Assembly: GCA_012515125.1 (NCBI GenBank)
Contig: JAAYYY010000562.1
Location: 1-36,810, forward strand
Direction: 5' to 3'
Length of the DNA: 36,810 bases
Origin: Chloroflexota bacterium
GTDB lineage: Bacteria > Chloroflexota > Anaerolineae > Promineifilales > Promineifilaceae
Part shown: piece after piece, positions 5,857 to 29,075 of the stretch
Numbering within the stretch: position 1 is the first letter of the stretch
Layout: each line of letters starts with the position of its first letter
The notes under the pieces: model-generated
Told to the model about the DNA's origin: nothing
Seen by the model: only the letters and a program-made list of their open reading frames with translations
The model's database searches: none
Translations under genes and position numbers: made by a program

Positions 5857-7686
5857 TCAGGTCGCTTCATCTGCCTGTTCCGACTCCCACTCCCCTTCCC
5901 AGAGAGCGCGCATTGCCTCAGAGCGGGCCAGCAGCTCGGGCAGAGCCCCACGCTCCACGATCCGGCCGTTCTCCAGCAGCAGGATCTGGTCGGCCCGGCG
6001 CAGGGCGGCCTGGCGGTGGCTGACGACGAGGCAGGCCGGGCGCTCCGGCAGCGCGAAGAGCCGCTCCCAGAGCGTGCGCTCCGTCTCCACGTCCAGCGCG
6101 CTGGAGAGGTCGTCGAAGACGAGCAGCTGGGGCCGGCGGGCGAACATCCGCGCTGCGGCAGAGCGCTGGATCTGCCCGCCGCTGAGGCGCACGCCGCGCG
6201 GCCCGACGACGGTTTCCAGCCCGTGCTCCATGCCCGCCAGATCGTGCTCCAGCACTGCCTGGTAGATCGCCCGGTCGAGATCCACACTTTCCGGCGGCAG
6301 CCCGAGCAGGATATTTTCGCGCAGGGTGGCGCTGAACAGGCGCGGCGCCTGGGCGGTGTAGGCCACCTGCGGCGGGACCATAAAGCGGGTCGGATCGTCC
6401 ACAGGCTCGCCGTTCCACCACAGCCCGCCCTCCTGCGGCGGCAGCAGCCCCAGCAGGCAACGCAGAAGGGTGGACTTGCCGGCGCCAATCCGGCCCGTCA
6501 CCACGGTGAAGCTGCCGGCTTCCAGCACGAGATCGATGTTCTGGATGCCGCCTCCTCCCTCGAAACGGTAGCCAAGCCCGCGCGCCTCCAGCCGGCGGAG
6601 CGGCGCCGGCTCTGGCAGCGGCGGTGGGGCCGGGTGGGGCCGGCGCAGGTAGATGGGCCGGTGGGCCACGACCGCACCCGGCGGCAGCCCGCGCATGATC
6701 GCCTCCATCCGCTGGGTGCTCACACCCACCTGCCGGTAGCGGGTTAGCAGGCGTCCGATGACGCGCATCAGTTGTGTCGCCGGGTCCAGATAGGCGACAA
6801 AGAGGGCAAAGTCGCCCACGGTTAGCTCGGCGTTCAACAGGGCGCTGGCAGCCACAAGCAGCACCAGCCCCATGCCAATGTTGCCTGAGCCGTGGCCGAG
6901 GGCGTCCACGATCTGCAGCAGCAGGCGGTCCCTGACCATCGTCTCGCGCCGCCGGTCGTTGACTTCTCGGAAGCGCGCGATGACCCGCTCCTCGGCTCCG
7001 GCAACCTTGATGGCCTGGGTGGCGTGGAACATATCGGCGATCATCCCCGTAACCTGCGCCGTCGCCGCGCGGCTGGCCTGCCGGTAGCGGCGGGCGAGCC
7101 CGCTCAGCCGGTGGGAAACGTACAGGATGAGCGCCAGCGGCAGGAAAATACCCACCGTCACCCAGAAGTCGATGCTGAACATGACGGCGAAGGCGATGAT
7201 TGCCGTAAAGAGCCCGGCCACGAAGTCGTCGATAATGATGATCGCTTCGGTCATCTCCAGGGCGTCGTCGCGGAGCGTGCTGACCGTCTGCCCCGTCGAG
7301 AGCGCGACTCCCTTTTCGTCGCGGGGCAGGGCCACGCCGGCCGGTAGCTGCAAGATGCGATCCATCATGTTGCGGACGATCAGCGCCATGCCGTGCTGGG
7401 TAAAGTTGATATAGCCCAGATAGGCTGCGTAGAGCGTGGAAACCCGTATGACGATCCAGGCCAGCTGCAGGAGCAGGATTGCCATGAGTGGCAGGATGAA
7501 GCCGGGCTCGCCGGTGAGGTTGTCGAAGTAGGCGCGCAGCAGCAGCCCCGTGACAGCGCTCATTCCAAAGCTGCTGGTGACGCCGAGCAGGTCCTGGGCA
7601 TAAAGGCGCGGCCGGAAGCGGATCAAGCTCCAGAGATAACGCCAGGTAGGCCAGGCCGGCACGGCGTGCGTGGGTGGGGCAGCCAT
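5857..7686 (-). CDS. ABC exporter half-transporter with degenerate ATP site (Walker B Glu replaced by Asp)
   Basis: A 609-residue type IV ABC exporter half: a six-helix membrane domain (about residues 20-320) followed by an ATPase domain. Visible motifs are Walker A GRIGAGKST (Lys404), Q-loop Gln446, canonical signature LSGGQ (501-505), Walker B LLVFDD with Asp526 where the catalytic Glu is normal, and switch His557. It is the second gene of a two-gene operon; its ATG shares a base with the upstream TGA (TGATG), so translation is coupled. Together with its neighbour it matches asymmetric heterodimeric exporters, with this subunit supplying the good signature motif and the weak catalytic site. 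The substrate is unknown. Confidence 0.92.
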   Translation of the reverse strand: MAAPPTHAVPAWPTWRYLWSLIRFRPRLYAQDLLGVTSSFGMSAVTGLLLRAYFDNLTGEPGFILPLMAILLLQLAWIVIRVSTLYAAYLGYINFTQHGMALIVRNMMDRILQLPAGVALPRDEKGVALSTGQTVSTLRDDALEMTEAIIIIDDFVAGLFTAIIAFAVMFSIDFWVTVGIFLPLALILYVSHRLSGLARRYRQASRAATAQVTGMIADMFHATQAIKVAGAEERVIARFREVNDRRRETMVRDRLLLQIVDALGHGSGNIGMGLVLLVAASALLNAELTVGDFALFVAYLDPATQLMRVIGRLLTRYRQVGVSTQRMEAIMRGLPPGAVVAHRPIYLRRPHPAPPPLPEPAPLRRLEARGLGYRFEGGGGIQNIDLVLEAGSFTVVTGRIGAGKSTLLRCLLGLLPPQEGGLWWNGEPVDDPTRFMVPPQVAYTAQAPRLFSATLRENILLGLPPESVDLDRAIYQAVLEHDLAGMEHGLETVVGPRGVRLSGGQIQRSAAARMFARRPQLLVFDDLSSALDVETERTLWERLFALPERPACLVVSHRQAALRRADQILLLENGRIVERGALPELLARSEAMRALWEGEWESEQADEAT

Positions 7687-9464
7687 CAGGCCAGCGCCTC
7701 CTCCAGGCCGACGCGCAGCAGGTGCGCGAAGCGGCTCTCCGGGTCGGCCGCCAGCGCTGCCCGCTCCCCGTGCTCGATCACCCGCCCATCTTCGAGGATC
7801 ATGATCTCGTCGGCGCGCTGGATGGTCGCCAGCCGGTGGGCAATGATGATCGTCGTGCGCCCCTCCAGCAGCCGGTCCAGCGCCCGCTCCAGCAGCCGCT
7901 CGGTGGCAGGATCAAGCCGCGAGGAGGCTTCGTCGAGGATGACCAGACCGGCGTCGGCGAGAAAGACGCGCGCCAGAGCCAGCAATTGTGCTTCCCCGGC
8001 CGAAAGGCTCTCGCCCGCCTCCAGCGGCGTGTCCAGACCGGCCGGCAAGCTATCCAGCCAGGGGCGCAGCCCGAGCGCTTCCAGCGCCGCGACCAGCCGG
8101 GCGTCGTCCACGCTGTCGTCAAACAGGGTCAGGTTATCACGCAGCGTGGCGTGAAAGAGCTGCACCTCCTGCGTGACCATGCCCACCTGCGCGCGCAACG
8201 CCGCCGGCGCCACCTCGCGCACATCAATCATGCCCCGGTCTCCATCGCCCGATCCGTCCCTCCCAACGCAGATCTTGCCCGCTATCGGGTCGTAGAAGCG
8301 CACCAGCAGCCGGATCAGCGTCGTCTTGCCGCTGCCCGTGCGCCCCAGCAGGCCGAGGACCCGGCCGGGCGCCAGGGAAAAATCGACGTCGCGCAGGACG
8401 AGCGCTTCCGGCGGATCGTCGTCGTAATGGAAGCTGACACCGTCAAAGCGGACGGCGAGCGGACCATCGGGCAGCGCGGCACTGCCGCTCTCGTCGAGGG
8501 CAGGCTGCTCGCCGAAGAGGGAGAGCACGCGGTTGAGGCTGGCCGAAGCCCGCTGCAGATCCTGCACCTGGCGCTGCACCGTCCACAGCGGGCCGATGAT
8601 CAGGTTGATGTAGTAGAAGACCAGATAGAGGGCGCCGATGGTCAGTACGTCGCCGCGGAAGAGCCGGTCGCCCCAGAAATAGGCCACGAAATAGGCGAAG
8701 CCGGGCAGCGCCACCGGCAGGGCCATTACCCCCATATTGGCCCGTCCGGCGCTCACGTTGGCCCGCCAGCGGCTGCGGCTCAGGGTCGCCAGCCGCTCCA
8801 GCACATACGGCGCGCCCCGGCTCGTTTGCAGCGCTTCCGTGCCGTCCAGCCACTCTTCGACGTAGCCGAAGAGATTGGCTTCCACTTCGCGCACCTTCTG
8901 CCAGCGGGGCACGACCAGCCGGTTGAAATAGCGCAACACCAGCAGTCCGGCGAGCAGGACGACGAGCATCGAAAGGCCGATGCGCCAGTCCAATAGCCAG
9001 AGAAGCACGACGACGCCGCTGACGAGGATCAGGTTGCTCGTCAGCTCCACAAAAAGCTGCGAAAAGAAGTTCGCCAGCAGGTTCACGTCGCCGTCCATCC
9101 GCTCAATCAGCTCGCCTGGGCGGCGCCGCTTGTGGAAAGACATATCCAGCCGCAGGCAGTGCAGGGCCAGGTCGGCGCGCAGGGCGTTGGTGGCCCGCCA
9201 GGCAACGTTCTCGCCCACGTAGGCGCCGGCGACGCGCAAGCCCTGGCCCACCAGGGCGATGAACATGAACAGGCCGCCGGTCCACAGCAGCTCCTCCAGG
9301 CTGCGACCCTGCTCCGCCGCGTCGAGAAAGCGGCGGATAAGCTGCGGGTTCAGCAGTTGCAGGAAGATGCCGCCGAGCACCAGGATGGCGAGAAGAACGA
9401 CCGCACCCCGCTGGGGTCGCAGATAATGGCGCAGCAGGCCCGAGTAAGTACGCGGAACAGACAC
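7686..9464 (-). CDS. ABC exporter half-transporter with catalytic Glu but degenerate signature
   Basis: A 592-residue membrane-plus-ATPase half-transporter, partner of the downstream gene. Walker A GRTGSGKTT (Lys380), Walker B LVILDE with catalytic Glu512 and switch His543 are intact. The signature is LSAGE (487-491) instead of LSGGQ. Pairing it with the downstream subunit gives one complete ATP site (this Walker motif set plus the partner LSGGQ) and one degenerate site. The start is GTG at 9462-9464 with no ribosome-binding site, and a possible promoter lies only about nine bases upstream, suggesting a nearly leaderless transcript. The gene diverges from the large mosaic protein gene. Confidence 0.92.
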   Translation of the reverse strand: MSVPRTYSGLLRHYLRPQRGAVVLLAILVLGGIFLQLLNPQLIRRFLDAAEQGRSLEELLWTGGLFMFIALVGQGLRVAGAYVGENVAWRATNALRADLALHCLRLDMSFHKRRRPGELIERMDGDVNLLANFFSQLFVELTSNLILVSGVVVLLWLLDWRIGLSMLVVLLAGLLVLRYFNRLVVPRWQKVREVEANLFGYVEEWLDGTEALQTSRGAPYVLERLATLSRSRWRANVSAGRANMGVMALPVALPGFAYFVAYFWGDRLFRGDVLTIGALYLVFYYINLIIGPLWTVQRQVQDLQRASASLNRVLSLFGEQPALDESGSAALPDGPLAVRFDGVSFHYDDDPPEALVLRDVDFSLAPGRVLGLLGRTGSGKTTLIRLLVRFYDPIAGKICVGRDGSGDGDRGMIDVREVAPAALRAQVGMVTQEVQLFHATLRDNLTLFDDSVDDARLVAALEALGLRPWLDSLPAGLDTPLEAGESLSAGEAQLLALARVFLADAGLVILDEASSRLDPATERLLERALDRLLEGRTTIIIAHRLATIQRADEIMILEDGRVIEHGERAALAADPESRFAHLLRVGLEEALA

Positions 9465-9692: not shown

Positions 9693-9728
9693 CCGCTCTC
9701 TTGATATTGGGCACAGGAGGTCTCTATC

Positions 9729-12700
9729 ATGAGCACGAAGTTTGGTCTTCACGTCGCTTCGGGCAGCCACAACGGCTATGGTGACGTCGTCGCCGCGGCG
9801 CCCGCCGTCGTGCTCGCCGTTGGCGAAGGGGGCGCGCTGGTCGAAGCGCGGGAAAAAAGCGTGGCGGCGCCGGGCGCAGCGCCGCGGACCATCACCATCT
9901 TCCGCGACCAGACCGTCTTCCACGACGCCCCGCCCGGCATCGACCAGATGAGCGAGGCGCAGGCCAGGGCGGCTGCCGACCAGTACTGGCCCCAGCTCAA
10001 AGAGAAATACCGGCTCAACCCGGCCGATTACTACCAGGTAACCAACGAGTACGGGGGCGATAACCCCACTTCTCTGGCCAACCTCGTCGCCTTCGAGACA
10101 CGCCTGATGGAGCTGGCCGAGCGCGATGGCTTCAAGCTGGCGGTCGGCAGCCCTGCCGGAGGCAGCCCCGGTAGCTGGGAGCTGTGGGTCCGCTTCTACG
10201 TACCCCTCATCCGCCGCGCGGGCGAGGGAGGCCACATCTACAGCCGCCATGCCTACGGCGGCGTCGTCCATCCAGACGGCATTGCCACGCTGACCGCGCC
10301 CGACGGTCAGGCTGCCGACGATAACGCCGGCCGGCCCTTCCGCGAGGCCGCCTACCTGCGCGCGCAGGGAATTCGCACGCCGATCGTCATCACCGAAGCG
10401 GGGCAGAACGGCGGCTTCCGTTTTCCCGGCGTCGATACGTTCATGGAAGACATGGCCCGCTATGACCGGCTCTGCCGGCAGCACGAGAACATCTGGGGCT
10501 TCTGCGCCTGGACCTACGGCAAGTACCTCGACTTCCCGGCCAACATCGAACCCGCTTCCAGCCGCATGGCCGACTACCTACGGCAGCAGGGGGGCGCCAC
10601 GCGGCCGGTCTATCCCACCGTCGCGGGAGGCGTGACGCCGCCCGCGCCCGAGCCGGCTGTCACCACCGAAAGCCCGTCTGCGCCAACGTCAACCGGCTTT
10701 CGCTTTACCCACTGGCCGACCGAATACCGCCGGATCAACCAGGCCTACAACAACGATCCCGCCTACTACGGCCAGTGGGGGCTGACCGGGCACGAAGGGC
10801 TGGACATCCAGGCGCCGCTCAACAGTCGCATTTTTGCCTGCGCGCCCGGCCGGGTCGAGCTGGTACGTCGCGAGGCGGAGGGCCATCCCTATGGCAACGC
10901 CGTCTACATGCGTCACGACGACGGCTACCGCACTACCTATGCTCATCTGCAGCAGGTCAACGTGGCTGCGGGCGACCAGGTCGCCGGCGGCCAGCTGCTG
11001 GGGCTGGCGGGCAGTACCGGCAACTCGCGGGGCGCCCACCTGCACCTGACCCTGTATAAAGACGGCGCGACAGCCCGCGGCGAGACACGGCAGCCTCGCG
11101 ACATCATCGACCCGACGCCGTTTGTCAACGCCCTGCGCGCTGCCGAATGGGCGCCGCCGCAGCCGCCGCTGCTCAATGGCTGGGGTTTCGCCACAAGCAT
11201 CGAGCGAGCCGGAGAGCTGGGCCGGGTTAAAGAGGGCATCAACATCAATCTGCGCGCCCAGCCCAGCCAGCAGGCCGGCAAGCTTGGCGCGGTGCCCGCC
11301 GGCACCGTCGTGCGCGTCACCGGCAATGCCCAGAACGACTATCTGCCGATCCAGGTGGCCGAAGCCGCCGTTACCGAGCGCGCGGGGGCGGCTCCCGGCA
11401 CTCACGCCTACGAGTTCATCAGCTTTGAGAACAGCGCCGGCGACTACACCAACGTGCAGCCCGGCCGGCAGTTCACCGCTTCCTGGGTCGTGCGCAACAG
11501 CGGCGGGTTGCCCTGGTCGGGCGATTTCCAGCTCGCCTATAGCGACGAGCCGGTCGCGCAGACGGCTAACCAGGCGCGCTCGCGGCTGGGCGCGCCCGCT
11601 TCCAGCACCTTCCGGCAGCTCAGCGGGCGCGAGCAGATTGCCCCGGGCGAATCGCTCACCTTCCAGCTCAAGCTGACCGCGCCCCTGCAGCCGGGCTGGT
11701 ACGCTTCCCACTGGCAGCTGCGCACGGCCGGCGGCGAGGTGATCGGCCGGCCCCTCTGGCTGCACATCAACGTGGCGGGCGCGGTCGATCCCATTGTGAT
11801 CGGGCCGGCAGCGCCTTTCCAGGCGGGGATGAACATCAACCCCGACGTGCATCCGCCAGACGTAGACCGGCTGCGCGGCCTGAGCTGGGTGCGCTTCCCC
11901 TACAAGGCCTCGGCTAAACACCGCAACGTGGACCAGGCGTTCAACGACGAATACCGCGCCCTCATCCAGGCCTATGCGAATGCCGGCATCAAGAGCCTGC
12001 TCATCCTCAACCAGGAGACGGAGTGGGGCAACGCGCCCTGGCACAACGGCGATTGGCCCGGTTACGCCGGCTCGCTGGCCCGCGCGGCGCGGCGCATTGC
12101 CGAGCTGGCGGCTCCGTTTGGCGATAAGGTCGCCTACCAGATCTGGAATGAAGGAGACAGCGATCCGACCAACCCCTCGGCCATCGGCGTCAGCCCGGAG
12201 AACTTCGCGCCGGTACTGCAGCAGACCGCCGCCGCCATCCGCGCCGTGGACCCCGACGCGACGATTGTCTTCGGCGGGCTGAACACAGGGCCGGAAAACG
12301 CCGTGGCCTATGCGCGCCGCGTGCGCGACCTGCTCGGGGGTCGCCTGCCCGTCGATGCGCTGGCCTACCACCCCTACGGTCGCTACGTCGAGTTCGACCC
12401 GTTCTATGGCAAGCAGTTCGGCCGGCTGGACGACGCGCTGCGCGTTTTCAAACAGGCGTTCCCCGACCTGCCCCTGTGGATAACCGAGCTGGGCATCGCC
12501 AACGATACGCCCATCGGCCCCGAGCATTACGAGAAAATCGCCCGCTACATGCGCGAGGTCGTCAGCGCCATCGCCGACCGCCACGCGAAAAACGTCCCGG
12601 TCCTCATCTGGTTCGCCTGGTCCGACCACATGCGCAACGCCGGCATCTCCACCACGAGCGGCGAGCTGAAGCCGCACATCAAAGAGGCTTTTCAGGCGCT

Positions 12701-14156
12701 GGTCAACGCGGGCAAGGCCGCTCCCGCCTTCGCCGACATGCGCTTTGCCGCCGGCCGGCCCCAGCCCATGGCGGAGTTCGTCAGCTTCAGCACCACGCTT
12801 ACCGACCATAACGCCGTGCCCGCCGGCAGTACCTTCGCCAATACCTGGCGCTTCCGCAACACCGGCGGAACGACGTGGGACGAAGGCTACAAGCTCGTCT
12901 ACGCACCGCAGGGCGCGACGAGCCACCCGATGATGAACGAGAAGAGCTTTTCCCTGGCCAAAGTCGCCAGCCCGCTGCCCGCCGCGCCGGGCGACGAGGT
13001 AGCGATCAACCTGTCGCTCACTGCGCCCGAACAGCACGGGCGCGTCTACCGCAGCCCCTGGCAGATTCGCGACGCAGCAGGCAAGGCCTTCGCCCACCTC
13101 TATGCCGAGATTACGGTCATCCCGGCTTCTACCGAAGGGAGCGGCGCACGGCAGGCCGACATGCGCTTTATCGCCGACCATACCATCCCCGACGATACGC
13201 CTCTGCCGGAGGGGCAGACCTTCCTCAAGCAGTGGCGCGTGCAGAACACCGGCGCGCGGCATTGGGGCAGCGGCTTCCGTCTCGTCTTCGTCGAGGGCGA
13301 CCTGCAGATGGCGGCGGGCATTGCCTCGCACATGGTTCCCGAATCGAAACCGGGCGACGAGGTCATTCTCTCCGTGCCCATGGTCGCGCCGGTCGCCCAG
13401 GAGAAGCGCGCGACGACCTACAGCAGCCTCTGGCGGCTCCAGGATGACCGGGGCAACTTCTTCGGCGCGCCTATCTGGGCGCGCATCATCTCCCAGCCCG
13501 GGGAGATGGTCACGCCGCTCGGCCGCTTCGCCGATATGTCCGGCTGGTATTCACAGCACGATCCCCGTTGGGCCAACGAGCGACTGGGCCACGGCCAGCA
13601 GACCATCGGCGCGTGGGGCTGCCTGCTGACCTGTTACGCGATGATGCTCACCGCCTACGGCCTGCGCGTGACGCCTGCCGACGTGAACCGGCGCTTCCAG
13701 CAGCTCGGCGACCAGGGGTTCCGCGGCTCCGATGTGCAGTTCATCGCCCCCACCCATCTGCTCGCCGGGCTGACCCTGGGCCGCAACCTGCGCTCCTGGC
13801 CGACCCCGGAGCTACCGTTTACGGAGTGGACGGGCGAGGATCCGATTGCGCGCATCGACAGGGCCATCGCCGACGGCTTCACGGTGCTCGCCCAGGTAGA
13901 CCGCAGGCCCAACGATGCCTTCTACCACTCCAACACGGAGCAGCACTGGGTCATCCTCGTCACGCGGACGCCCGACGGCTCCGATTATCTGATGCTCGAC
14001 TCGATCACGCCGCCCGGCCAGCTACAGAACCAGCCGCTCTCGCTGATGCGCAAATATGGCAGCCCCGCGCCCAGCCGCTCCCACGAGGACAACCTGCGCC
14101 ACGCCATCAAATCGGCCCTGATCTACCTCTTCTCCGGGCAGCCCGGCAGCGGCTAG
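9729..14156 (+). CDS. Giant mosaic cell-wall hydrolase-like protein (GH-like, M23, SH3b, NBR1-Ig x3, C39-like), no signal peptide
   Basis: A 1475-residue protein. Residues 1-290 form a glycoside-hydrolase-like barrel with acidic candidates Glu107 (TNEYGG) and Glu223 (ITEAGQ). Residues about 330-470 are an M23/LytM endopeptidase with metal and catalytic residues His355, Asp359, His406, His437 and His439. An SH3b domain spans about 495-545. NBR1-like Ig domains span about 557-680, 1002-1134 and 1143-1258. A second barrel (about 697-998) carries Glu808 (NEGDSD) and Glu920 (TELGIA). A C-terminal C39-like papain-fold domain (about 1270-1440) has Cys1298, His1406 and Asp1424. AGGAGG precedes the ATG. 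No signal peptide is visible and an in-frame stop at 9702 excludes a longer N terminus. The set implies peptidoglycan or surface-glycan cleavage; the export route is unknown. Confidence 0.85.
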   Translation: MSTKFGLHVASGSHNGYGDVVAAAPAVVLAVGEGGALVEAREKSVAAPGAAPRTITIFRDQTVFHDAPPGIDQMSEAQARAAADQYWPQLKEKYRLNPADYYQVTNEYGGDNPTSLANLVAFETRLMELAERDGFKLAVGSPAGGSPGSWELWVRFYVPLIRRAGEGGHIYSRHAYGGVVHPDGIATLTAPDGQAADDNAGRPFREAAYLRAQGIRTPIVITEAGQNGGFRFPGVDTFMEDMARYDRLCRQHENIWGFCAWTYGKYLDFPANIEPASSRMADYLRQQGGATRPVYPTVAGGVTPPAPEPAVTTESPSAPTSTGFRFTHWPTEYRRINQAYNNDPAYYGQWGLTGHEGLDIQAPLNSRIFACAPGRVELVRREAEGHPYGNAVYMRHDDGYRTTYAHLQQVNVAAGDQVAGGQLLGLAGSTGNSRGAHLHLTLYKDGATARGETRQPRDIIDPTPFVNALRAAEWAPPQPPLLNGWGFATSIERAGELGRVKEGININLRAQPSQQAGKLGAVPAGTVVRVTGNAQNDYLPIQVAEAAVTERAGAAPGTHAYEFISFENSAGDYTNVQPGRQFTASWVVRNSGGLPWSGDFQLAYSDEPVAQTANQARSRLGAPASSTFRQLSGREQIAPGESLTFQLKLTAPLQPGWYASHWQLRTAGGEVIGRPLWLHINVAGAVDPIVIGPAAPFQAGMNINPDVHPPDVDRLRGLSWVRFPYKASAKHRNVDQAFNDEYRALIQAYANAGIKSLLILNQETEWGNAPWHNGDWPGYAGSLARAARRIAELAAPFGDKVAYQIWNEGDSDPTNPSAIGVSPENFAPVLQQTAAAIRAVDPDATIVFGGLNTGPENAVAYARRVRDLLGGRLPVDALAYHPYGRYVEFDPFYGKQFGRLDDALRVFKQAFPDLPLWITELGIANDTPIGPEHYEKIARYMREVVSAIADRHAKNVPVLIWFAWSDHMRNAGISTTSGELKPHIKEAFQALVNAGKAAPAFADMRFAAGRPQPMAEFVSFSTTLTDHNAVPAGSTFANTWRFRNTGGTTWDEGYKLVYAPQGATSHPMMNEKSFSLAKVASPLPAAPGDEVAINLSLTAPEQHGRVYRSPWQIRDAAGKAFAHLYAEITVIPASTEGSGARQADMRFIADHTIPDDTPLPEGQTFLKQWRVQNTGARHWGSGFRLVFVEGDLQMAAGIASHMVPESKPGDEVILSVPMVAPVAQEKRATTYSSLWRLQDDRGNFFGAPIWARIISQPGEMVTPLGRFADMSGWYSQHDPRWANERLGHGQQTIGAWGCLLTCYAMMLTAYGLRVTPADVNRRFQQLGDQGFRGSDVQFIAPTHLLAGLTLGRNLRSWPTPELPFTEWTGEDPIARIDRAIADGFTVLAQVDRRPNDAFYHSNTEQHWVILVTRTPDGSDYLMLDSITPPGQLQNQPLSLMRKYGSPAPSRSHEDNLRHAIKSALIYLFSGQPGSG

Positions 14157-14163
14157 CCAAGAA

Positions 14164-14190
14164 GGAGCGCCGGCATCCTGCCGGCGCTCC
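14164..14190. terminator. Bidirectional hairpin terminator between convergent genes
   Basis: GGAGCGCCGGCA (14164-14175) and TGCCGGCGCTCC (14179-14190) form a perfect 12-bp stem with a 3-base loop, exactly in the 40-base gap between the convergent mosaic gene and IMP dehydrogenase gene. A T-tract is weak on both strands, so it is a hairpin-type terminator by position and stability. Confidence 0.75.
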
Positions 14191-20324: not shown

Positions 20325-21959
20325 ATGGCCTACATCGCCGAGGAACAGGATTCGCAGGGTAATTCCATGACATCCGAACCACCCGTCGTTCCGGTCGCGG
20401 AGATGGCCGACGGCGCCTCTACCCGCGACCAGGGAGCGAAGGCCACACGCCGCCACATCCGCGGCTCGTCTATCCTCTTTGCCGGACGGCTGATTTCCAT
20501 CGCCCTCAACTTTGGCGTGCAGGTGCTCACCGTTCGCTATCTGTTGAAGAGCGACTACGGCGCCTTCGCCTACGCCCTGTCCATTGCCTCAATCGGTGCA
20601 AGCGTCGCCCTCTTTGGCCTGGACAAGGCGGTAGCGCGCTTCATTCCCATCTATGAGGAGCGCGGCGAAGATGACAAGATGCTCGGCACCATCGTCATGA
20701 CGCTGCTGACCATTCTGGGAATTGGCGCTGCGCTCGTCCTGGGCGTCATTGGCTTTCGCGGCCTCATCGGCGACCGCTTCGTCCAGGACCCGCTCGCCGT
20801 CTCGCTGCTGGTTCTGCTGATTCTGCTTTCGCCCCTGCAGGCTATCGATAGCTGGTTCCAGGGGCTCTTCGCTGTGTTCGCCAAGCCGCAGGCCATCTTT
20901 GTACGCCGCTACGTGCTGGGACCGGTCATGAAGCTCGCTGCCGTGCTCGTCGTCATCCTCAGCCGTCAGGGCGTCTACGTGCTCGCCGTCGGCTATCTCG
21001 TCGCCGCCATCATCGGCTCTCTGATCTATGCCGCCATGCTGCGCCAGCTTTTCCGCGAGCGCGGCATCCGCGTCAGCGAGACGCTACGGCGCATTGTCTT
21101 CCCGGTGCGCGAGGTCTTCTCCTTCAGCACGCCGCTGCTGACCAGCGACGTCATGAACATCCTGAAGTCCAGTTTTGTCGTCGTCTTGCTGCAATATTTC
21201 GCCAGCACGACAGAGGTGGCCGAGTTCCGCGCCGTCGTCCCCGTTGCCGGCCTCAACCTCATTGTCATGCAAAGCTTCAAATATCTCTTCACGCCGGAAG
21301 CGGCCCGCCTCTTTGCCCGCCAGGATAGCCAGGGGATCAACGACCTCTACTGGCGTTCGGCTACGTGGATCGCCGTGATCACCTTCCCGGTGTTCGCCGC
21401 CTCCTTCTCCCTCGCGCGCCCCCTGACGGTTCTGCTCTTTGAGGAGCGCTACGCCAGCTCGGCGACGGTGCTGGCGCTGCTCACGCTGGGCAACTATATG
21501 AACGCCGCTATGGGCTTCAACGCTTACACCCTGCGCGTCTTTGGCAAGGTTGGCTATATTGTCGCCATCGACCTGTTCACCGCGCTCGTCGGCGTGGTCC
21601 TGAACGTCCTGCTCATCCCGCCCTATGGGGCCATTGGCGCCGCCATCGGTACGACGGCTGCGCTCGTTCTCTACAACCTGCTCAACCACGCCGGCCTGCT
21701 GCTGGGCACACAGATCCGGCTCTTCCAGCCCCGTTACCTGCGCGTCTATGCCAGCATTGTCCTCGGCGCTGTCGTGCTGCTGCTGATCGACCTGCTGCTT
21801 GAGCCGGGCGTTGTCGCCGGAGGCCTGTTGATCGCCGCCATTTCCCTGCTGCTCGTCCTCTTTAACTGGCAGGTGATGGAGGCCGGCCGGATGTTCCCCG
21901 AGCTGCATCGCATTCCGGTCCTCGGCCCGCGTCTGATGGCCCTGGAGAAACAATCATGA
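20325..21959 (+). CDS. Wzx-type polysaccharide flippase (MOP superfamily)
   Basis: A 544-residue polytopic membrane protein of the oligosaccharide flippase family, which moves undecaprenyl-linked repeat units across the membrane. The N-terminal block GSSILFAGRLISIALNFGVQ and the following VRYLLKSDYGAFAYALS are typical of the first helices; twelve to fourteen hydrophobic segments follow. The ORF starts at an ATG abutting the upstream TAA. A second in-frame ATG at 20367 with AGGG seven bases upstream may be the real start, which would remove 14 residues. Its stop overlaps the next start as ATGA. It belongs with the polymerase and Wzz-like protein of the same locus. Confidence 0.92.
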   Translation: MAYIAEEQDSQGNSMTSEPPVVPVAEMADGASTRDQGAKATRRHIRGSSILFAGRLISIALNFGVQVLTVRYLLKSDYGAFAYALSIASIGASVALFGLDKAVARFIPIYEERGEDDKMLGTIVMTLLTILGIGAALVLGVIGFRGLIGDRFVQDPLAVSLLVLLILLSPLQAIDSWFQGLFAVFAKPQAIFVRRYVLGPVMKLAAVLVVILSRQGVYVLAVGYLVAAIIGSLIYAAMLRQLFRERGIRVSETLRRIVFPVREVFSFSTPLLTSDVMNILKSSFVVVLLQYFASTTEVAEFRAVVPVAGLNLIVMQSFKYLFTPEAARLFARQDSQGINDLYWRSATWIAVITFPVFAASFSLARPLTVLLFEERYASSATVLALLTLGNYMNAAMGFNAYTLRVFGKVGYIVAIDLFTALVGVVLNVLLIPPYGAIGAAIGTTAALVLYNLLNHAGLLLGTQIRLFQPRYLRVYASIVLGAVVLLLIDLLLEPGVVAGGLLIAAISLLLVLFNWQVMEAGRMFPELHRIPVLGPRLMALEKQS

Positions 21960-23239
21960 TCGCCCACGCCGAACAGACGCTCGAACGCGACCTGGAGCAG
22001 AGGCTGGAGCCACAGCCGCAGCCGCCGCGCGTGGCCTATATTATGTCGCGCTTCCCCAAGCTGACAGAGACGTTTGTGCTGCTGGAGATCATGGCGCTGG
22101 AAGCCCAGGGCTTTTGCGTGGAACTCTTCCCGCTGTGGCGCGAAAAGGCGACGACCATCCATCCCGAGGCGCAGGAGCTGGTCGAGCGCGCCCATTACAC
22201 GCCCGCCCTCAACCTGCCTATTCTGCGAGCCAATCTGCGCGCGCTGTGGAAGCAGCCCCGCGCTTACCTGGGCGCTCTGGGCACGCTGGTGCGGACCAAC
22301 CTGGGCAGCTCGCGCTATCTGGCCGGCGGGCTGGCCGCCTTCCCTAAGGCCGTCTACATGGGCGAGCAGATGCTGGCGGCCGGCGTCGGCCACGTCCACG
22401 CTCATTTCGCCAGCCACCCGGCAGCCGCCGCCTTCGTCATCCATCGCCTCACCGGGCTACCTTACAGCTTCACGGCCCACGGCTCTGACCTGCATCGCGA
22501 CCAGCACATGCTCTGCGAGAAGGTCGCCGAGGCGGCCTTCGTCGTAGCCATTTCCGACTATAACCGCAACGTCATCCTGTCGCACTGCGGCGGCCAGAAA
22601 AACGGCCATCTGCGGGTGATCCACTGCGGTGTGGACACGACCCAGATTGAACCGCGCTGTAGCTACGAGCAGCACGGCCCTCTGCGTCTGCTCTGTATCG
22701 GCACGCTGCACACCGTCAAAGGGCAGAGCTATCTCATCGCGGCGCTGGCCGAGCTACGCCGGCAGGGCATCGACGCGACCGTCGATTTTGTTGGGGACGG
22801 CCCGGACCGCGCCGCGCTGGAGCAGCAGGCCGAGCAGGCCGGCGTCGGCCCGTTTGTGCAGTTCCACGGCGCGCAGACCCGCGAGCAGGTGATGGCCCAC
22901 CTGCGCCGGGCTGACGTGGCCGTGGCCCCCAGCGTGCCTACCGCCGATGGCCGGCGCGAAGGCATCCCTGTCGCCCTGATGGAGGCGATGGCGGCGGGCC
23001 TGCCTGTCGTCGCCAGTCGGCTCTCCGGCATCCCCGAGCTGGTGACGGACGGGAAGTCCGGTCTCCTGACCCCACCCGGCGACGTGGCGGCGCTGGCAGC
23101 GGCTATCCGGCGCCTGCACGACGATCCGGCGCTGCGCGAGAGGCTCGGCCGGGCCGCGCGCGCCACCGTCGAGCGGGATTTCGACCTGCACGGCAACGTC
23201 GCCCTGCTGGCCCGGCAGTTCCAGGAGGCGCAGGCATGA
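21956..23239 (+). CDS. Glycosyltransferase family 4 (GT-B fold)
   Basis: A 427-residue cytoplasmic retaining glycosyltransferase that would add a sugar to the lipid-linked repeat unit. The N-terminal acceptor domain starts YIMSRFPKLTETFVLLEI and includes the FTAHGSDLH segment. The C-terminal nucleotide-sugar domain has IGTLHTVKGQSYLIAAL and the EX7E motif EGIPVALME (Glu335 and Glu343), followed by GLPVVASRLSGIPELV. It overlaps both neighbours by ATGA, indicating coupled translation with the flippase and GT2 genes. The donor sugar is not predictable. Confidence 0.92.
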   Translation: MIAHAEQTLERDLEQRLEPQPQPPRVAYIMSRFPKLTETFVLLEIMALEAQGFCVELFPLWREKATTIHPEAQELVERAHYTPALNLPILRANLRALWKQPRAYLGALGTLVRTNLGSSRYLAGGLAAFPKAVYMGEQMLAAGVGHVHAHFASHPAAAAFVIHRLTGLPYSFTAHGSDLHRDQHMLCEKVAEAAFVVAISDYNRNVILSHCGGQKNGHLRVIHCGVDTTQIEPRCSYEQHGPLRLLCIGTLHTVKGQSYLIAALAELRRQGIDATVDFVGDGPDRAALEQQAEQAGVGPFVQFHGAQTREQVMAHLRRADVAVAPSVPTADGRREGIPVALMEAMAAGLPVVASRLSGIPELVTDGKSGLLTPPGDVAALAAAIRRLHDDPALRERLGRAARATVERDFDLHGNVALLARQFQEAQA

Positions 23240-24405
23240 GGCTGTTCCTCTTCTGGAGTTCGGTAGGGCTGCTGATCTACACCTATTTCCTCTTCCCGCT
23301 GCTCGTCGCCGCGCGCGCCGTGCTGCGCCCCCGGCCGCACCGGGAGGCAAACATTACCCCATCCGTCAGCGTGATCATCGCCGCGCACAACGAAGAGGCC
23401 GTCATCGGCCCCAAGCTCGACAACCTGCTCTCGCTCGACTACCCGCGCGACTGCCTGGAGGTGATCGTCGCCTCCGATGGGTCGGATGACGGCACGAACG
23501 AGCTGGTGCGCACCTACGAGTGGCAGGGCGTGCACCTGCTGGCCCTGCCCCGGCAGGGCAAAGCGGCGGCCCTCAACGCCGCCGTCGCCGAGACCAAGGG
23601 CGAGATCCTCGTCTTCTCGGACGCCAACAGCATCTACGCGCCCGGCGCGCTGCGGGCTCTCGTCCGCCCCTTCGCCGACCCGACCGTGGGCGGCGTGGCC
23701 GGCAACCAGGTCTACCGGCCCGCCCCGGAGGCCAGCCTGGCCGGCGAGGGCGAAAAGCAATATTGGGGGCTGGATCGTCAGCTCAAGCTGTACGAAAGCG
23801 CCGCCGGGAACGTCATTTCGGCGACCGGGGCCATCTATGCCATCCGCCGCGAGCTGTTCGCGCCGGTCGCTGAGGGCGTCACCGACGACTTCTACACCTC
23901 AACGGGCGTGATCGCCCAGGGTTACCGCCTCGTCTTTGCGCCGCAGGCCATCGCCTACGAAGCGGTGGCGGGAAAGAGTGGCGACGAGTTCGGCCGCAAA
24001 GTGCGCGTCATCACCCGTGGCCTGCGGGGCGTCCTGCTGCGCCGCGAGCTGCTGGACCCGCGCCGCCACGGCTTCTACGCACTACAGCTCTTCTCGCATA
24101 AGGTGCTGCGGCGGCTGGTCGCCGTGCCGCTCCTCTTGCTGGCCCTCGTCAGCCCGCTGCTGTGGGCGCGCGGCGCGCTCTACCGTCTCGCCACGCTCGG
24201 CCAGGCGCTGTTTTATGGCCTGGCGGCCGCGGGCATCGCCGCGGAACGTTCGGGTCGCAAGCTACACAGGCTGCTGGCGCTGCCCGCCTACTTCTCGCTG
24301 GTCAACGTCGCCGCGCTGCAGGCGACGCTGAACGTCTTGCGCGGGCGCTCCATCGTCGTCTGGGAGCCGACCCGCGCCACGGCAGCGCCGGAGGAGGGAC
24401 GATGA
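23236..24405 (+). CDS. Membrane-associated glycosyltransferase family 2
   Basis: A 389-residue inverting GT-A enzyme. An N-terminal membrane helix (about residues 3-28) precedes SVSVIIAAHNEEAVIG, the nucleotide-binding VIVASDGSDDGTNELV and the acidic FSDANS block. C-terminal hydrophobic segments (about 285-350) anchor it, as in hyaluronan/cellulose-synthase-like or chain-elongating GT2 proteins. The ITRGLRGVLLRR region lies where a QxxRW-type motif would be, but that motif is not intact. It overlaps its neighbours by ATGA on both sides. A role in repeat-unit assembly is likely. Confidence 0.9.
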   Translation: MRLFLFWSSVGLLIYTYFLFPLLVAARAVLRPRPHREANITPSVSVIIAAHNEEAVIGPKLDNLLSLDYPRDCLEVIVASDGSDDGTNELVRTYEWQGVHLLALPRQGKAAALNAAVAETKGEILVFSDANSIYAPGALRALVRPFADPTVGGVAGNQVYRPAPEASLAGEGEKQYWGLDRQLKLYESAAGNVISATGAIYAIRRELFAPVAEGVTDDFYTSTGVIAQGYRLVFAPQAIAYEAVAGKSGDEFGRKVRVITRGLRGVLLRRELLDPRRHGFYALQLFSHKVLRRLVAVPLLLLALVSPLLWARGALYRLATLGQALFYGLAAAGIAAERSGRKLHRLLALPAYFSLVNVAALQATLNVLRGRSIVVWEPTRATAAPEEGR

Positions 24406-25979
24406 GCACACTGAGCGCGCGCGCCGAATCACTGCGCCTGTTCCTGCGTGCCTACAAGCCAGTCGTGGTCCTGCTGCTGGCGGTGCTGGGCGGCGTCATA
24501 GGCGGCCTGCTGGCGACCTCGCCGCTGCTGGCGCTGGCAAGCATCGTGCTGCTGGTGGTCTCCATCACGGTTCTCAGCTGGCCGGAAGCAGCCACGTTGC
24601 TGGTCATCTTTATCCTTTATAGCAACATCGCCGTCGTCCTGGTGCGGTTCCACGGCGTGCCGTTCATCGCCGGTGCGGCCTTTCCGTTGTTGCTGGCTCT
24701 CCCGCTGGCGATTTACCTGGTTCTGGAACGGCGCCCGCTGCGCATCACGCCCGCGCTGCCCTACGTCGTCCTCTTCATGGCCGCCCAGCAGGTCAGCCTT
24801 CTGTTCTCGAACGATCCTGCCGCCTCTTTCCGTGAAGTCACCAACTTCGTCCTCGAAGGCTTTCTCATCTACCTGCTGGTGATTAACGTGGTACGGACGC
24901 CCCGCACCCTGCGCCATGTAGCCTGGACGCTGCTGCTCGCGGGTATCGTCCTGACGGCGGCGCCCTTTTACCAGCAGATAACGGGTAGCTTTGACGACAC
25001 GTTGGGGGGCTTCGGCCAGCTCTCCGAAGTTGGCTTCCGCACGGGGGAAACGAACCTGGTGGAGGGCGATTTACGCCAGTACCGACTCTCGGGCCCCATC
25101 GGCGAACAAAACCGCTACGCCCAGGTGTTGCTCATGCTGGTGCCGCTCGGCTGGTTTGCCCTCTATTTCGAGCGGTCGCTCGGCCTCAAGCTGCTGGGTC
25201 TGGCCCTGGCCGGCGTTGCGCTGGGCGGTGTGGCCCTTTCCTTTTCTCGTGGCGCGGCCGTGGCTTTTGTCATCCTCGTGTTAGCCATGCTGGTGACGCG
25301 CCTGCTTCGCCCGGCCCATTTCCTCGTCTTCCTGCTGCTTGTCGCCGTCGTCCTGATGGCTGTGCCGCAGCTAACGGTGCGCCTGGTGACGATCCCCTCA
25401 GTGACAGATCTGCTCAGCGAGGAGACGACGACGAGCGAGCTGGACGGCGCCATCCGCGGGCGGGCGACGGCCATGATTGCCGCCGCTCTCGTCTTCGCCG
25501 ACCATCCGATTGTCGGCGTAGGGCCGGGGCAATTTCAGTTCTATTCCGCCGAGTACGGGAACCGGCTGGGCATCCGTATTCTGGAAGGGAATCGGGAGGC
25601 CCATTCGCTCTTCCTCGACGTGGCCGCCAACTATGGCATCCTTGGCCTGATCTCTTTCCTGGCTATGGTCCTGGTGCCCATCCGCGTTATTCTGGCTGCC
25701 CGGCACAAGCTGGCAGGTCGCCGGCCGGCGCTCAGCTACCTGACGATTGGCTTTGCTTTTGCCATTCTGGCCTATCTGGGTACGGGCATCTTCCTGCACC
25801 TTTCCTACGTGCGCTATTTCTGGCTGATGCTGGGCCTGGCCGATACGGCTGCGCTGATTGCCCAGCGCGCAGCCAATGAAGAACCGATCGTGCGCGCCTA
25901 CGCGGCGACGGCTGGCCTGAACGCGCGAGATTACGCAGGCGAATGGCTGCCCGGCGAGACAGCAGGAGGCTCGCAATAA
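24402..25979 (+). CDS. Wzy/O-antigen-ligase-like polysaccharide polymerase
   Basis: A 525-residue polytopic protein with about ten to twelve hydrophobic helices. A Wzy_C/O-antigen ligase block contains LSFSRGAAVAFVI, a large extracytoplasmic loop, DHPIVGVGPGQF and AHSLFLDVAANYGILGL; the Arg of SRG and the His of AHS match positions important in this family. The start is set at ATG 24402, preceded by GGAGGG and overlapping the GT2 stop as ATGA; the ORF-track start at 24162 runs inside the GT2 gene. Expected role: polymerising flipped repeat units at the outer face. A ligase role (transfer to lipid or protein) cannot be excluded. Confidence 0.88.
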   Translation: MSTLSARAESLRLFLRAYKPVVVLLLAVLGGVIGGLLATSPLLALASIVLLVVSITVLSWPEAATLLVIFILYSNIAVVLVRFHGVPFIAGAAFPLLLALPLAIYLVLERRPLRITPALPYVVLFMAAQQVSLLFSNDPAASFREVTNFVLEGFLIYLLVINVVRTPRTLRHVAWTLLLAGIVLTAAPFYQQITGSFDDTLGGFGQLSEVGFRTGETNLVEGDLRQYRLSGPIGEQNRYAQVLLMLVPLGWFALYFERSLGLKLLGLALAGVALGGVALSFSRGAAVAFVILVLAMLVTRLLRPAHFLVFLLLVAVVLMAVPQLTVRLVTIPSVTDLLSEETTTSELDGAIRGRATAMIAAALVFADHPIVGVGPGQFQFYSAEYGNRLGIRILEGNREAHSLFLDVAANYGILGLISFLAMVLVPIRVILAARHKLAGRRPALSYLTIGFAFAILAYLGTGIFLHLSYVRYFWLMLGLADTAALIAQRAANEEPIVRAYAATAGLNARDYAGEWLPGETAGGSQ

Positions 25980-25983
25980 ACCG

Positions 25984-27099
25984 ATGACAGACAACCATCG
26001 CAGCATCGAATTCAACTTGCATAATCTCGTCACCATTCGCGTCGTGGATGGCGGCCCGGCCGACGTTGCCGCCGTGCGCCGGCAGGTTGGCCTGCCCGCC
26101 ATGCCGGTGCAGGAGTCGGGCCCGGCTCCCGACATCACCATTCGTTTCGTGGATCGGCTGGATACGCCGGGGCTGCGGTACATCGGCGTGGACGATGCAG
26201 CTTTCACCAACGATGCCTTCTTTGTCCTGCGCGGGAAAAATAAACGGCTGATTAAAGTCCAGATACCGTTCGCGGAGATTGGCACGCCAACCACGCTGGT
26301 CAGCGAGCGTAACGTCGGCGCCATCCCCCTGCTCACGGCGATCACCAACCTCACGGCGCTGGCGAAAGGGGCGCTGCCCCTCCACGCCGCTGCTTTCTGC
26401 TACGGCGGCCACGGCGTCCTGACCACAGGCTGGTCTAAAGGCGGCAAGACGGAAACACTGCTGGGCTTCATGGCCCACGGCGCCACCTTCATCGGCGACG
26501 AGTGGGTTTACCTCAGCCCCGACGGCGCCCGGATGTACGGCCTGCCCGAACCGGTGCGCATCTGGGAGTGGCATCTGAGCGAGATGCCCGAATACCGGGC
26601 AAGGTTGAGCCCGAAGCAGCGCGCACGTATGGCCTTGCTGCGGGTGCCGATCGCCCTCGCCGACCGGGCCGCTGAACGAGATGGAAACAGCCTGCTGCGC
26701 CGCGCCCGCCCGCTGTTGCGCCGGCAGCACGGCCTGAATATCTCGCCGCAGCGCCTCTTCGGCCATGATCGCCTGCTTTCGTCCGGCCCGCTGGACAAGG
26801 TCTTCTTTGTCGTCAGCGGCGAGGCGCCAGAGGTGACTGTCGAGCCGGGCGACCCCGAAGACGTGGCGGCGCGGATGCTCTTTTCTCTGCTGGAGGAGCA
26901 GATGCCGCTGCTCTCTTATTACTGGAAATATCGCTTCGCCTTCCCCGAACGGCCCAACGAGCTGCTGGAAACTGTGCAGCAGCGGCAGGCCGAGGCCCTG
27001 CAGCGGGTGCTGGCGGGCAAAGAGCTATACATCGTCACCCACCCCTACCCGGCGCCCATCCCCGCTATGGTCGCGGCTATGGCGCCCGTTCTGGCCTGA
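25984..27099 (+). CDS. HPr-kinase-like P-loop protein of a polysaccharide locus
   Basis: A 371-residue soluble protein whose centre resembles the C-terminal kinase domain of HPr kinase/phosphorylase. The core is LPLHAAAF (His134), then P-loop GWSKGGKTE (Lys155), then GATFIGDEWVYL with acidic Asp172-Glu173. The N-terminal 120 residues and the C-terminal 150 residues are not recognised. HprK-type kinases normally phosphorylate a Ser on a small carrier protein, but related proteins occur in secondary-metabolite and polysaccharide loci with unknown targets. No HPr is in the window. AGGAGG lies 13 bases before the ATG, rather far. Substrate could be a sugar, a lipid carrier or a protein. Confidence 0.72.
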   Translation: MTDNHRSIEFNLHNLVTIRVVDGGPADVAAVRRQVGLPAMPVQESGPAPDITIRFVDRLDTPGLRYIGVDDAAFTNDAFFVLRGKNKRLIKVQIPFAEIGTPTTLVSERNVGAIPLLTAITNLTALAKGALPLHAAAFCYGGHGVLTTGWSKGGKTETLLGFMAHGATFIGDEWVYLSPDGARMYGLPEPVRIWEWHLSEMPEYRARLSPKQRARMALLRVPIALADRAAERDGNSLLRRARPLLRRQHGLNISPQRLFGHDRLLSSGPLDKVFFVVSGEAPEVTVEPGDPEDVAARMLFSLLEEQMPLLSYYWKYRFAFPERPNELLETVQQRQAEALQRVLAGKELYIVTHPYPAPIPAMVAAMAPVLA

Positions 27100-27109
27100 G
27101 TGGAGCCCT

Positions 27110-27850
27110 GTGAAGGAAAAACGGAAAGGTACGCACGAGAAAATGTTCTCAGTGGCCCTCATTGGCGCCGACGGCGCAGGAAAAACCACGGTCGCCCGCC
27201 ATCTTGAAGTCCGGCAGGAAATGCCTGTCCGTTACCTGTATATGGGCGTCAGCAAAAGCTCCAGCAACCGGATGCTGCCCACAACTCGTCTGATGCTGGC
27301 TCTAAAGCGGGCTGCCGGCCGGGATGACGACGAAGGCGGGCCGCCCAATCCCGCGCGGCAGGCACGGCCTGCGCGTGGCTGGCGCCGCCTGCTGCGATCG
27401 GGCAAGCGGGCGCTCTCGCTGGCGAACCGCCTGGCCGAAGAGGGCTACCGGGCGCTTCTGGCGACGCACTACCGCCGCCAGGGCTATATTGTTCTATTTG
27501 ACCGTCACTTCTACAGCGATTACTATGCTCATGATATCGTCGGCAACGGCCATCAAACCCGCTGGCGGCGCATACACGGGCTCTTTCTCAACCACTTCTA
27601 CCCAAAGCCCGATTATTTGATTCTTCTCGACGCCCCGGCGCCCGTCCTGCACGCGCGCAAAGGGGAAGGTACGGTTGAGCTACTTGAACGTCGTCGCGCT
27701 GAATACTGGCAGCTTCGGGAACAGGTTCCCTATTTTTCCGTCGTCGATGCGACCCAGCCGCAGGAGGCCGTCGTGCAGCAGGTGACCGACCTGATCCGCA
27801 ACTTCCAGAAACAGCAGCGCGAACCTATTGTGGGCGGGGTGGAGGATTGA
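27110..27850 (+). CDS. Thymidylate-kinase-like P-loop kinase
   Basis: A 246-residue nucleoside-monophosphate-kinase-fold protein. The P-loop is ALIGADGAGKTT (Gly19 to Thr26), an acceptor/lid-type segment reads VLFDRHFYSDYYAHD, and the strand YLILLDAPAPVLHARK is followed by a basic lid helix (ERRRAEYWQL). A long basic insert (about residues 65-110) is unlike housekeeping thymidylate kinases, and the location in a polysaccharide locus argues for another substrate. The start is GTG 27110 with GGAG upstream; ATG 27143 is an alternative. Its stop lies two bases before the next ATG. Confidence 0.78.
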   Translation: MKEKRKGTHEKMFSVALIGADGAGKTTVARHLEVRQEMPVRYLYMGVSKSSSNRMLPTTRLMLALKRAAGRDDDEGGPPNPARQARPARGWRRLLRSGKRALSLANRLAEEGYRALLATHYRRQGYIVLFDRHFYSDYYAHDIVGNGHQTRWRRIHGLFLNHFYPKPDYLILLDAPAPVLHARKGEGTVELLERRRAEYWQLREQVPYFSVVDATQPQEAVVQQVTDLIRNFQKQQREPIVGGVED

Positions 27851-27852
27851 TT

Positions 27853-29064
27853 ATGCCCACCGTTCTGGTGACGGACGCCAGCCGTGGGAGCGCCATCACC
27901 ATCATCCGCTCGCTGAGCAAGATGGGCTGGACGGTGGTTGCTGCCGACGCCACTCGCCGCAGCCTGGGCTTTCGGTCGCGCCATGCACACCACCGCTTCG
28001 TCTACCCTTCGCCCTCTGCCGAGCCGGAAGCCTACGTCACCGCGCTGTGCGAGGCGGTGAGCCGGTATGCTGTGGACCTGCTCATTCCCATTACCGACGA
28101 GACGATACTGCCGCTGGCCCGCGCGCGCATTCGCTTTGCCGGGCAATGCCGGCTGGCTATTGCCGGCGATAAGGCGCTCCAGGCTGTAACCGATAAGCAG
28201 GTCACGCTCGATCTCTGCGAGGAGCTTGGCATTCCGGTGCCCGAGACCTACGTCGCCTACAGCGTCGAGGAGGCCCAGGAAGTAGCCCACTTGCTGCCCT
28301 GGCCCATTGTGGTCAAGGCCCAGCGCTCGCGCCGCCTGGTGAGCGGCGCCGGCGTGCAGAACACCGGCCCGGTCGGCTACGCCAACTCGGTCAAGCAGCT
28401 GATCGACCAGGCGGAGCGGCTCATCCAGCACGGGCCGGTCCTCCTGCAGGGCTACCAGCCGGGCACGGGCCAGGGGGTCGAGATGCTGGCCTACGAAGGG
28501 CGGCCGCTGGCTATATTCCAGCACCGCCGGCTGGCCGAGGTGCCGATTACCGGTGGGGCAAGCGCCTGGCGAGAGAGCGTCCCCCTGAACCCCACGCTCG
28601 TCGAGTACAGCCGGAGGCTGGTCGAAGCGCTGAACTGGACCGGGCTGATCATGGTCGAGTTCAAGGTCAATGAGACGGACGCCGTCCTGATGGAAGTCAA
28701 TGGACGGGTCTGGGGCTCGCTGCCGCTGGCCGTACATAGCGGCATGGATTTCCCCGCCCGGCTCGCCGAGCTTTACCTGAACGGCTCGCCACCGCCAGAA
28801 CCGCCGGCAACTGATTACCGCCGAGGCGTGCGCGCCTCCAATCTGGAGTTGATGGCCGTCTGGTTTGCCCAGGTTCTGCGCAAGCGCCGTCGCTATCCCT
28901 TTATCCCGCAGCCAGGGCGGCGCGATGCCCTGCGGGCCCTGCTGGGCATGTTCGGTCGTCGCCAGAAATTTGACGTACAGAGCTGGTCGGACCCCCTGCC
29001 CGGCCTGTTCCAGATAGGCCATACGCTGACCCACCTGAGCCGCAAAGCACGCGCCGCCAGTTGA
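27853..29064 (+). CDS. ATP-grasp ligase
   Basis: A 403-residue ATP-grasp enzyme resembling carbamoyl-phosphate-synthase-type and PylC-like ligases, which join a carboxylate to an amine, thiol or other nucleophile through an acyl phosphate. The N-terminal Rossmann-like domain begins VLVTDASRGSAITIIRSL. The ATP-grasp core has PWPIVVKAQRS, LLQGYQPGTGQGVEML and the metal-binding end MVEFKVNETDAVLMEVNGRVWGS. GGAGG at 27841-27845 selects ATG 27853, not the TTG at 27847. The sequence downstream overlaps the deacetylase gene. An amino-acid or acyl substituent on the polysaccharide is possible. Confidence 0.85.
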   Translation: MPTVLVTDASRGSAITIIRSLSKMGWTVVAADATRRSLGFRSRHAHHRFVYPSPSAEPEAYVTALCEAVSRYAVDLLIPITDETILPLARARIRFAGQCRLAIAGDKALQAVTDKQVTLDLCEELGIPVPETYVAYSVEEAQEVAHLLPWPIVVKAQRSRRLVSGAGVQNTGPVGYANSVKQLIDQAERLIQHGPVLLQGYQPGTGQGVEMLAYEGRPLAIFQHRRLAEVPITGGASAWRESVPLNPTLVEYSRRLVEALNWTGLIMVEFKVNETDAVLMEVNGRVWGSLPLAVHSGMDFPARLAELYLNGSPPPEPPATDYRRGVRASNLELMAVWFAQVLRKRRRYPFIPQPGRRDALRALLGMFGRRQKFDVQSWSDPLPGLFQIGHTLTHLSRKARAAS

Positions 29065-29075
29065 TGGAGGATAGA

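Follow-up and report, generated by a model that had tools for sequence, protein, structure and literature searches.

The mosaic gene and its surroundings

The window, by which we mean the whole stretch of 36,810 nucleotides analysed here, is contig 484 of a fragmented Chloroflexota MAG (4.69 Mb in 721 contigs, 94.5% complete and 8.8% contaminated). It carries a gene for a mosaic hydrolase, with the following features at its ends:

9702..9704, forward strand: TGA stop, in frame, nine codons 5' of the start codon (read in the sequence)
9715..9720, forward strand: Shine-Dalgarno AGGAGG, 8 nt before the ATG (read in the sequence)
9729..14156, forward strand: leaderless mosaic hydrolase gene (open reading frame of 1475 residues with an ATG start)
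14164..14190, no strand: 12-bp inverted repeat between the mosaic gene and a convergent IMPDH gene (terminator-like hairpin)

The start of the gene is well defined by the first two of these, and the claim of the earlier note that the in-frame TGA at 9702 leaves no room for an upstream start stands. The same layout, a Shine-Dalgarno sequence before the ATG, is also seen ahead of orthologous leaderless starts. The gene is monocistronic, flanked by a divergent ABC pair on one side and the convergent IMPDH gene on the other; the inverted repeat has a predicted hairpin of -26.6 kcal/mol, with no clear T run on the forward strand. The divergent pair, upstream at 5857-9464 on the reverse strand, consists of overlapping ABC-exporter-type half transporters. 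Further downstream, at 20325-30062 on the forward strand, the window also holds a polysaccharide cluster made of a flippase-like gene, two glycosyltransferases, a Wzy-type ligase, an ATP-grasp gene and a polysaccharide deacetylase.

Domains and catalytic residues

From the N- to the C-terminus, the protein reads barrel, M23, SH3b, Ig, PslG-like barrel, Ig, Ig and C39-like domain:

9729..10598, forward strand: barrel 1 (residues 1-290), GH5-like fold (AlphaFold model, PDB fold matches, alignment)
10788..11069, forward strand: M23 metallopeptidase (residues 354-447; Pfam 7.5e-24, PDB sequence matches)
11241..11351, forward strand: SH3b (residues 505-541; Pfam SH3_3 1.8e-5)
11439..11774, forward strand: NBR1-type Ig domain 1 (Pfam N_BRCA1_IG)
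11838..12620, forward strand: barrel 2 (residues 704-964), GH5/GH39-type, PslG-like (Pfam Cellulase 1.6e-10; PslG 1.7e-6)
12795..13118, forward strand: NBR1-type Ig domain 2 (Pfam N_BRCA1_IG)
13182..13487, forward strand: NBR1-type Ig domain 3 (Pfam N_BRCA1_IG; PDB NBR1 4ole 6e-14)
13512..14153, forward strand: C39-like papain-fold peptidase (model with pLDDT 87.6; PDB 3erv; alignment)

The earlier note had proposed this mosaic of two glycoside-hydrolase-like barrels, M23, SH3b, three NBR1-like Ig domains and a C39-like peptidase, to be checked by domain searches; these have now been run, and Pfam and two structural models agree with it, the domains matching hydrolase profiles or folds. The M23 (LytM) assignment is the firmest, at 84.2 bits against a Pfam cut-off of 28.7, with all ligand and catalytic residues intact (H355 and D359 in the motif HEGLD, H406, and H437 and H439 in HLH) and sequence matches in the PDB to TagE, zoocin A, ShyA and lysostaphin. 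The SH3_3 score of 25.3 bits falls just below the cut-off of 27, and this domain is kept together with M23 in relatives. The three N_BRCA1_IG domains jointly reach 3e-59 and 198.6 bits, above the Pfam cut-off.

Barrel 1 has no Pfam match. AlphaFold folds residues 1-304 with confidence into a TIM-type barrel (pLDDT 87; strands at 5-9, 27-31, 55-59 and onward), whose nearest PDB folds are GH5 endoglucanases with a TM of about 0.5. Strand 1 occupies residues 5-9, so that the protein begins directly with a barrel strand, as had been noted from the sequence. The candidate catalytic pair is E107, nearly invariant in the barrel 1 alignment, and E223, invariant; a TIM barrel with acid/base and nucleophile glutamates on strands 4 and 7 is the arrangement of clan-A type glycoside hydrolases, and barrel 1 conforms to it. 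In barrel 2 the acid/base E808 and the nucleophile E920 are both invariant in the alignment of relatives sharing the Ig-GH-Ig-Ig-C39 block. The C-terminal domain scores 0.0047 and 17.9 bits with Peptidase_C39_2, under the cut-off of 24, but the same domain exceeds it in relatives (25.6 bits in L043 and 35.7 in L056). Residues 1255-1475 are modelled as a papain-like domain with 3erv, a C39-like peptidase, as best PDB match (pLDDT 87.6), and the Cys-His-Asp triad C1298, H1406 and D1424 is invariant in the alignment. M23, the two barrels and C39 each retain their full set of expected catalytic residues. The label of wall hydrolase given earlier is well grounded for M23-SH3b only, the two barrels resembling GH5/GH39 polysaccharide hydrolases.

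Leaderless relatives

The window protein carries no signal peptide, lipobox or TM anchor for Sec, Tat or lipoprotein export. We judge it to be without an export signal because its start is fixed by the Shine-Dalgarno sequence and the TGA, its first strand begins at residue 5, and its homologues are leaderless too. A scan of genome contigs with the single sequence found no relatives; an alignment-based search with the Ig-GH-Ig-Ig-C39 block yielded 29 named loci, and the named relatives of this block belong to Promineifilum sp., Anaerolineae, Ardenticatenia and other Chloroflexi MAGs, which places the window's organism, a Chloroflexota bacterium, in their family.

In relatives, orthologous modules begin at residue 1-10 of a domain. 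Within one Anaerolineae family, every M23-SH3b orthologue that we read starts directly on its domain (23/23). So do all C39-LysM proteins with a readable N-terminus (11/11) and 12 of the 13 N-terminal barrels read; the thirteenth, the barrel-1 homologue L004 in the window's own genome, is a lipoprotein. In most of these leaderless cases the ATG is immediately preceded by a Shine-Dalgarno sequence, with a stop codon no further than about 15 codons away on the 5' side. Other M23 loci of six family genomes carry, judged by eye, a signal peptide, a lipobox or a TM helix in 26 of 30 cases, as do, again by eye, most other Ig-domain proteins of the same six genomes. An error in the sequence at 9702 could not account for this pattern, since orthologous modules are leaderless across the family; leaderlessness is neither an artefact nor unique. 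The earlier note had held that orthologues with a signal peptide, together with an upstream sequencing error, would undo its claim, and had suggested surveying orthologues for N-terminal extensions. Both points were examined and the lack of a leader is confirmed, but the protein is no lone oddity: it is one member of a lineage-wide leaderless suite.

By comparison with these relatives, the window protein is a fusion of three modules that elsewhere are separate leaderless proteins. Barrel 1 is found in a 613-aa SH3b protein of G036 (L048, 67-69% identical), the M23-SH3b module in proteins of about 790 aa (L051-type) in most family genomes, and the Ig-GH-Ig-Ig-C39 block in a 934-aa protein of G009 (L046). 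In G037, G043 and G046, C39-LysM is fused to a GH domain. We found no separate M23-SH3b-GH protein in the window's genome, and the full window architecture in no other genome searched.

Some neighbouring observations concern other enzymes. Two GH46 chitosanase-like proteins are apparently leaderless (L075:7974-9146 and L172:11358-13103), which would make the suite wider than M23 and C39. A subtilisin-trypsin fusion with no obvious leader adjoins two leaderless mosaics (L044:11317-13770), and a C25 (gingipain-like) peptidase with a weak Pfam match lies directly downstream of the closest full-length relative (L038:5501-7594).

Caspase-linked loci in relatives

To compare neighbourhoods in the family genomes, 40 stretches that include a caspase (C14) gene and 20 that include a contractile-sheath gene were retrieved, several of them short contigs. 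At six caspase loci (L172, L177, L179, L183, L185 and L200, in genomes G003, G012, G016, G024, G030 and G042), the caspase has leaderless mosaics, C39-LysM proteins and/or a conserved unknown protein no more than a few kb away; none of these occurs at the 34 other caspase loci or at the 20 sheath loci. The six genomes span five genera, and their caspases form one similarity group. The statistics do not all point the same way. For this clade, defined after the fact, the split of 6/6 against 0/34 other C14 loci gives a Fisher value of 2.6e-7; the comparison of all caspase with sheath loci (6/40 against 0/20) does not reach significance (p 0.17). If leaderless genes are assumed to occur once per 0.5-1 Mb, six loci are improbable (p 1e-3 to 2e-5).

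Further neighbours at the clusters are a patatin phospholipase, a SIR2 protein similar to ThsA, an FGE-sulfatase, an Ig-barrel protein and a GH46-barrel protein. At a seventh locus, from another family (L055), a caspase-EAD7 gene lies beside barrel, C39 and M23 genes. The window gene has no caspase neighbour, and no caspase was detected in its MAG. More broadly, only 31 of 84 genomes showed a C14 gene, and we rejected the idea of a universal caspase partner. A caspase cannot be the general trigger of the suite, as C14 is undetected in the window's MAG and in many members that have leaderless proteins.

The C14 proteins of the six loci end in a GDKxGGDK-type repeat and a helical tail in five of six cases. 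The conserved unknown protein beside caspases, a family of about 360 aa (L044:1763-2842, L177:2639-3712, L179:5211-6317, L055:9357-10475), has no Pfam match and was found in only 6 of 118 genomes. Two caspase clusters share a conserved protein of about 250 aa, without leader or Pfam match (L179:6337-7113, L183:1838-2593), that looks like a carbohydrate-binding beta-sandwich.

Discussion

The earlier note had left three options side by side: export by an unusual route, escape through lysis in the manner of a toxin or endolysin, and action in an unexpected place. They no longer appear equal. The neighbourhoods of relatives seem to favour a role in lysis or cell death, while the comparison with an endolysin does not hold by descent. 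We lean, tentatively, towards the window protein being a chromosomal, leaderless autolysin degrading wall and glycan, a cytoplasmic store similar to LytA that would act once the membrane fails. The cell would keep the mosaic hydrolase in the cytoplasm after synthesis, a place that offers no substrate to M23 or to the glycosidases. Once the membrane is breached, M23, targeted by SH3b, could digest peptidoglycan, the two barrels could digest sheath or matrix polysaccharide, and C39 could digest peptides. The mode of action would be that of pneumococcal LytA or of a phage endolysin, delivered as one large multi-enzyme chain. In the caspase-clustered relatives, the hydrolases are probably released or activated in the course of a programmed lysis or conflict response, given that the same leaderless modules are clustered there with a caspase-like peptidase and with cell-death and conflict genes.

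Several observations speak for such an autolysin. The family seems leaderless by design, in genomes that also hold related domains with export signals. A tropism for the wall is suggested by M23 and SH3b, and by LysM or GH46 in sister proteins. The caspase clusters of six genomes point the same way. Precedents, besides LytA, are bacterial metacaspases that are fused to amidases or share an operon with them (PMC3501461), and EAD1 systems with peptidoglycan-directed effectors that bear lysozyme and papain-like domains (PMC7159879). On the other hand, caspases were not detected in the window's MAG or in many family members with a leaderless suite, no holin-like partner was found (no LrgB over cut-off in 51 genomes), the window gene stands alone between its divergent and convergent neighbours, and the substrate of the GH barrels may be polysaccharide outside the cell instead of its own wall. 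A wider proposal can be built on the same data, namely that filamentous Chloroflexota hold lineage-specific leaderless mosaics degrading wall or matrix as the execution arm of programmed lysis, with a dedicated caspase-like peptidase, encoded in a cluster with C39-LysM, patatin and SIR2 genes, as the trigger in some strains; we regard it as rather doubtful.

Alternatively, the suite could be secreted alive by a dedicated, unrecognised non-Sec route and degrade sludge polymers or neighbouring cells, which we consider possible but not probable. The protein does look built for the outside, with its M23, SH3b, Ig and GH domains and a P/T-rich linker, and the lineage, in which the suite is both large and conserved, is predicted to break down external polymers (PMC11495043). 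However, its members share no N- or C-terminal extension: they start with different catalytic or Ig domains and their ends differ. The divergent ABC pair upstream would be a candidate exporter, but it does not adjoin the gene in any relative's neighbourhood and was rejected. Contractile-injection sheath genes (PF04984) occur in 23 of 51 genomes and WXG100 (PF06013) in 13 of 51, and neither was found in the window's draft MAG, where absence is weak evidence at 94.5% completeness. Injection cargo, with no leaderless mosaic at the sheath loci sampled, and WXG100 secretion were both set aside. With sheath and WXG100 patchy, LrgB absent and the ABC pair not conserved, no known export route is a general match.

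It is less likely still that the leaderless hydrolases are the effectors of a proteolytic cascade in a caspase-triggered programmed-lysis or conflict module, with the window gene as a stand-alone effector. The post hoc split of the caspase clade and the patatin, ThsA-like SIR2, FGE-sulfatase and EAD7 neighbours speak for such a module. But most members of the suite, the window gene included, are not near a caspase, the contrast of caspase with sheath loci is not significant, and a cleavage site or adaptor domain was looked for in the window protein and none was found.

The earlier note, right about the lack of a leader, had missed a hydrophobic run at residues 20-31 (VVAAAPAVVLAV), whose mean hydropathy of 2.68 over 12 residues is the highest of the protein and which could fool a signal-peptide predictor. 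That it is an internal signal sequence leading to Sec export is very improbable. The run extends into barrel strand 2 (residues 27-31 of the high-confidence model), and cleavage would remove strands 1 and 2; its counterpart is much less hydrophobic in distant homologues, and it is absent from leaderless sister proteins that start with M23, C39 or Ig.

The window gene is chromosomal and not phage-derived: no phage genes were found around it, and phage, plasmid and viral-contig searches returned short M23 or Ig domain matches only (5 of 50,697 phage records, over 8-9% of the query, and one very weak viral-contig match), so that a phage or plasmid origin was rejected. Capture of an endolysin, tail lysin or contractile-injection cargo from a prophage, disfavoured already, is scarcely credible with sheath genes absent from the window's genome and no leaderless mosaic at 20 sheath loci, even if the leaderless multi-domain M23-SH3b plan resembles endolysins and M23 alone matches tape-measure proteins.

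Comparison with known systems

It has long been asked how a wall hydrolase without a leader gets to its substrate, chiefly with regard to LytA and phage. A whole conserved leaderless suite in an abundant and hardly studied lineage bears on this question, and it comes with a clean internal control, since a single genome can hold related domains of both kinds, those with an export signal and those lacking one. Pneumococcal LytA, the model for the autolysin that we tentatively propose, is a host autolysin without signal peptide, partly cytoplasmic, that stays in the cytoplasm or at the membrane until lysis (PMC12029793). Like it, the window protein has no signal peptide and is a host-encoded, predicted wall hydrolase. 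LytA, however, is a small amidase with choline-binding repeats, whereas the window protein combines M23, two GH barrels and C39 in 1475 aa; the likeness is one of plan, and no homology is expected. With phage endolysins (M23/CHAP and SH3b) it shares the absence of a leader and a catalytic domain joined to SH3b wall targeting. These are encoded in phage or prophage lysis modules; the window gene is chromosomal, outside any such module, belongs to a lineage-wide paralogous suite, and has neither phage context nor an identified holin.

The M23 domain resembles LytM-type endopeptidases (ShyA, TagE, DipM, lysostaphin) in its intact metal ligands, with E-values down to 5e-16, but the LytM-type proteins found in these genomes have a signal peptide, lipobox or TM helix, unlike the window class. 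Barrel 2 aligns with the exopolysaccharide glycosidase PslG (1.7e-6) and has both catalytic glutamates; PslG is a single-domain envelope protein, while here the predicted glycosidase is part of a multidomain mosaic.

Few targets of bacterial caspases are known, and the caspase clusters provide a concrete, testable link between these proteases and cell-wall destruction. As in the caspase/EAD conflict systems of multicellular prokaryotes, relatives of the window protein adjoin caspase, patatin, SIR2 and FGE-sulfatase genes, but the protein itself has no EAD domain and its gene lies outside such a cluster. The effectors of published EAD1 systems are linked by EAD1, not by leaderless mosaics. Fusions and operons that connect bacterial caspases with peptidoglycan hydrolases were described earlier (PMC3501461); the novelty lies in how large and conserved the suite is, in the fusion of its modules and in the recurrence of the caspase cluster.
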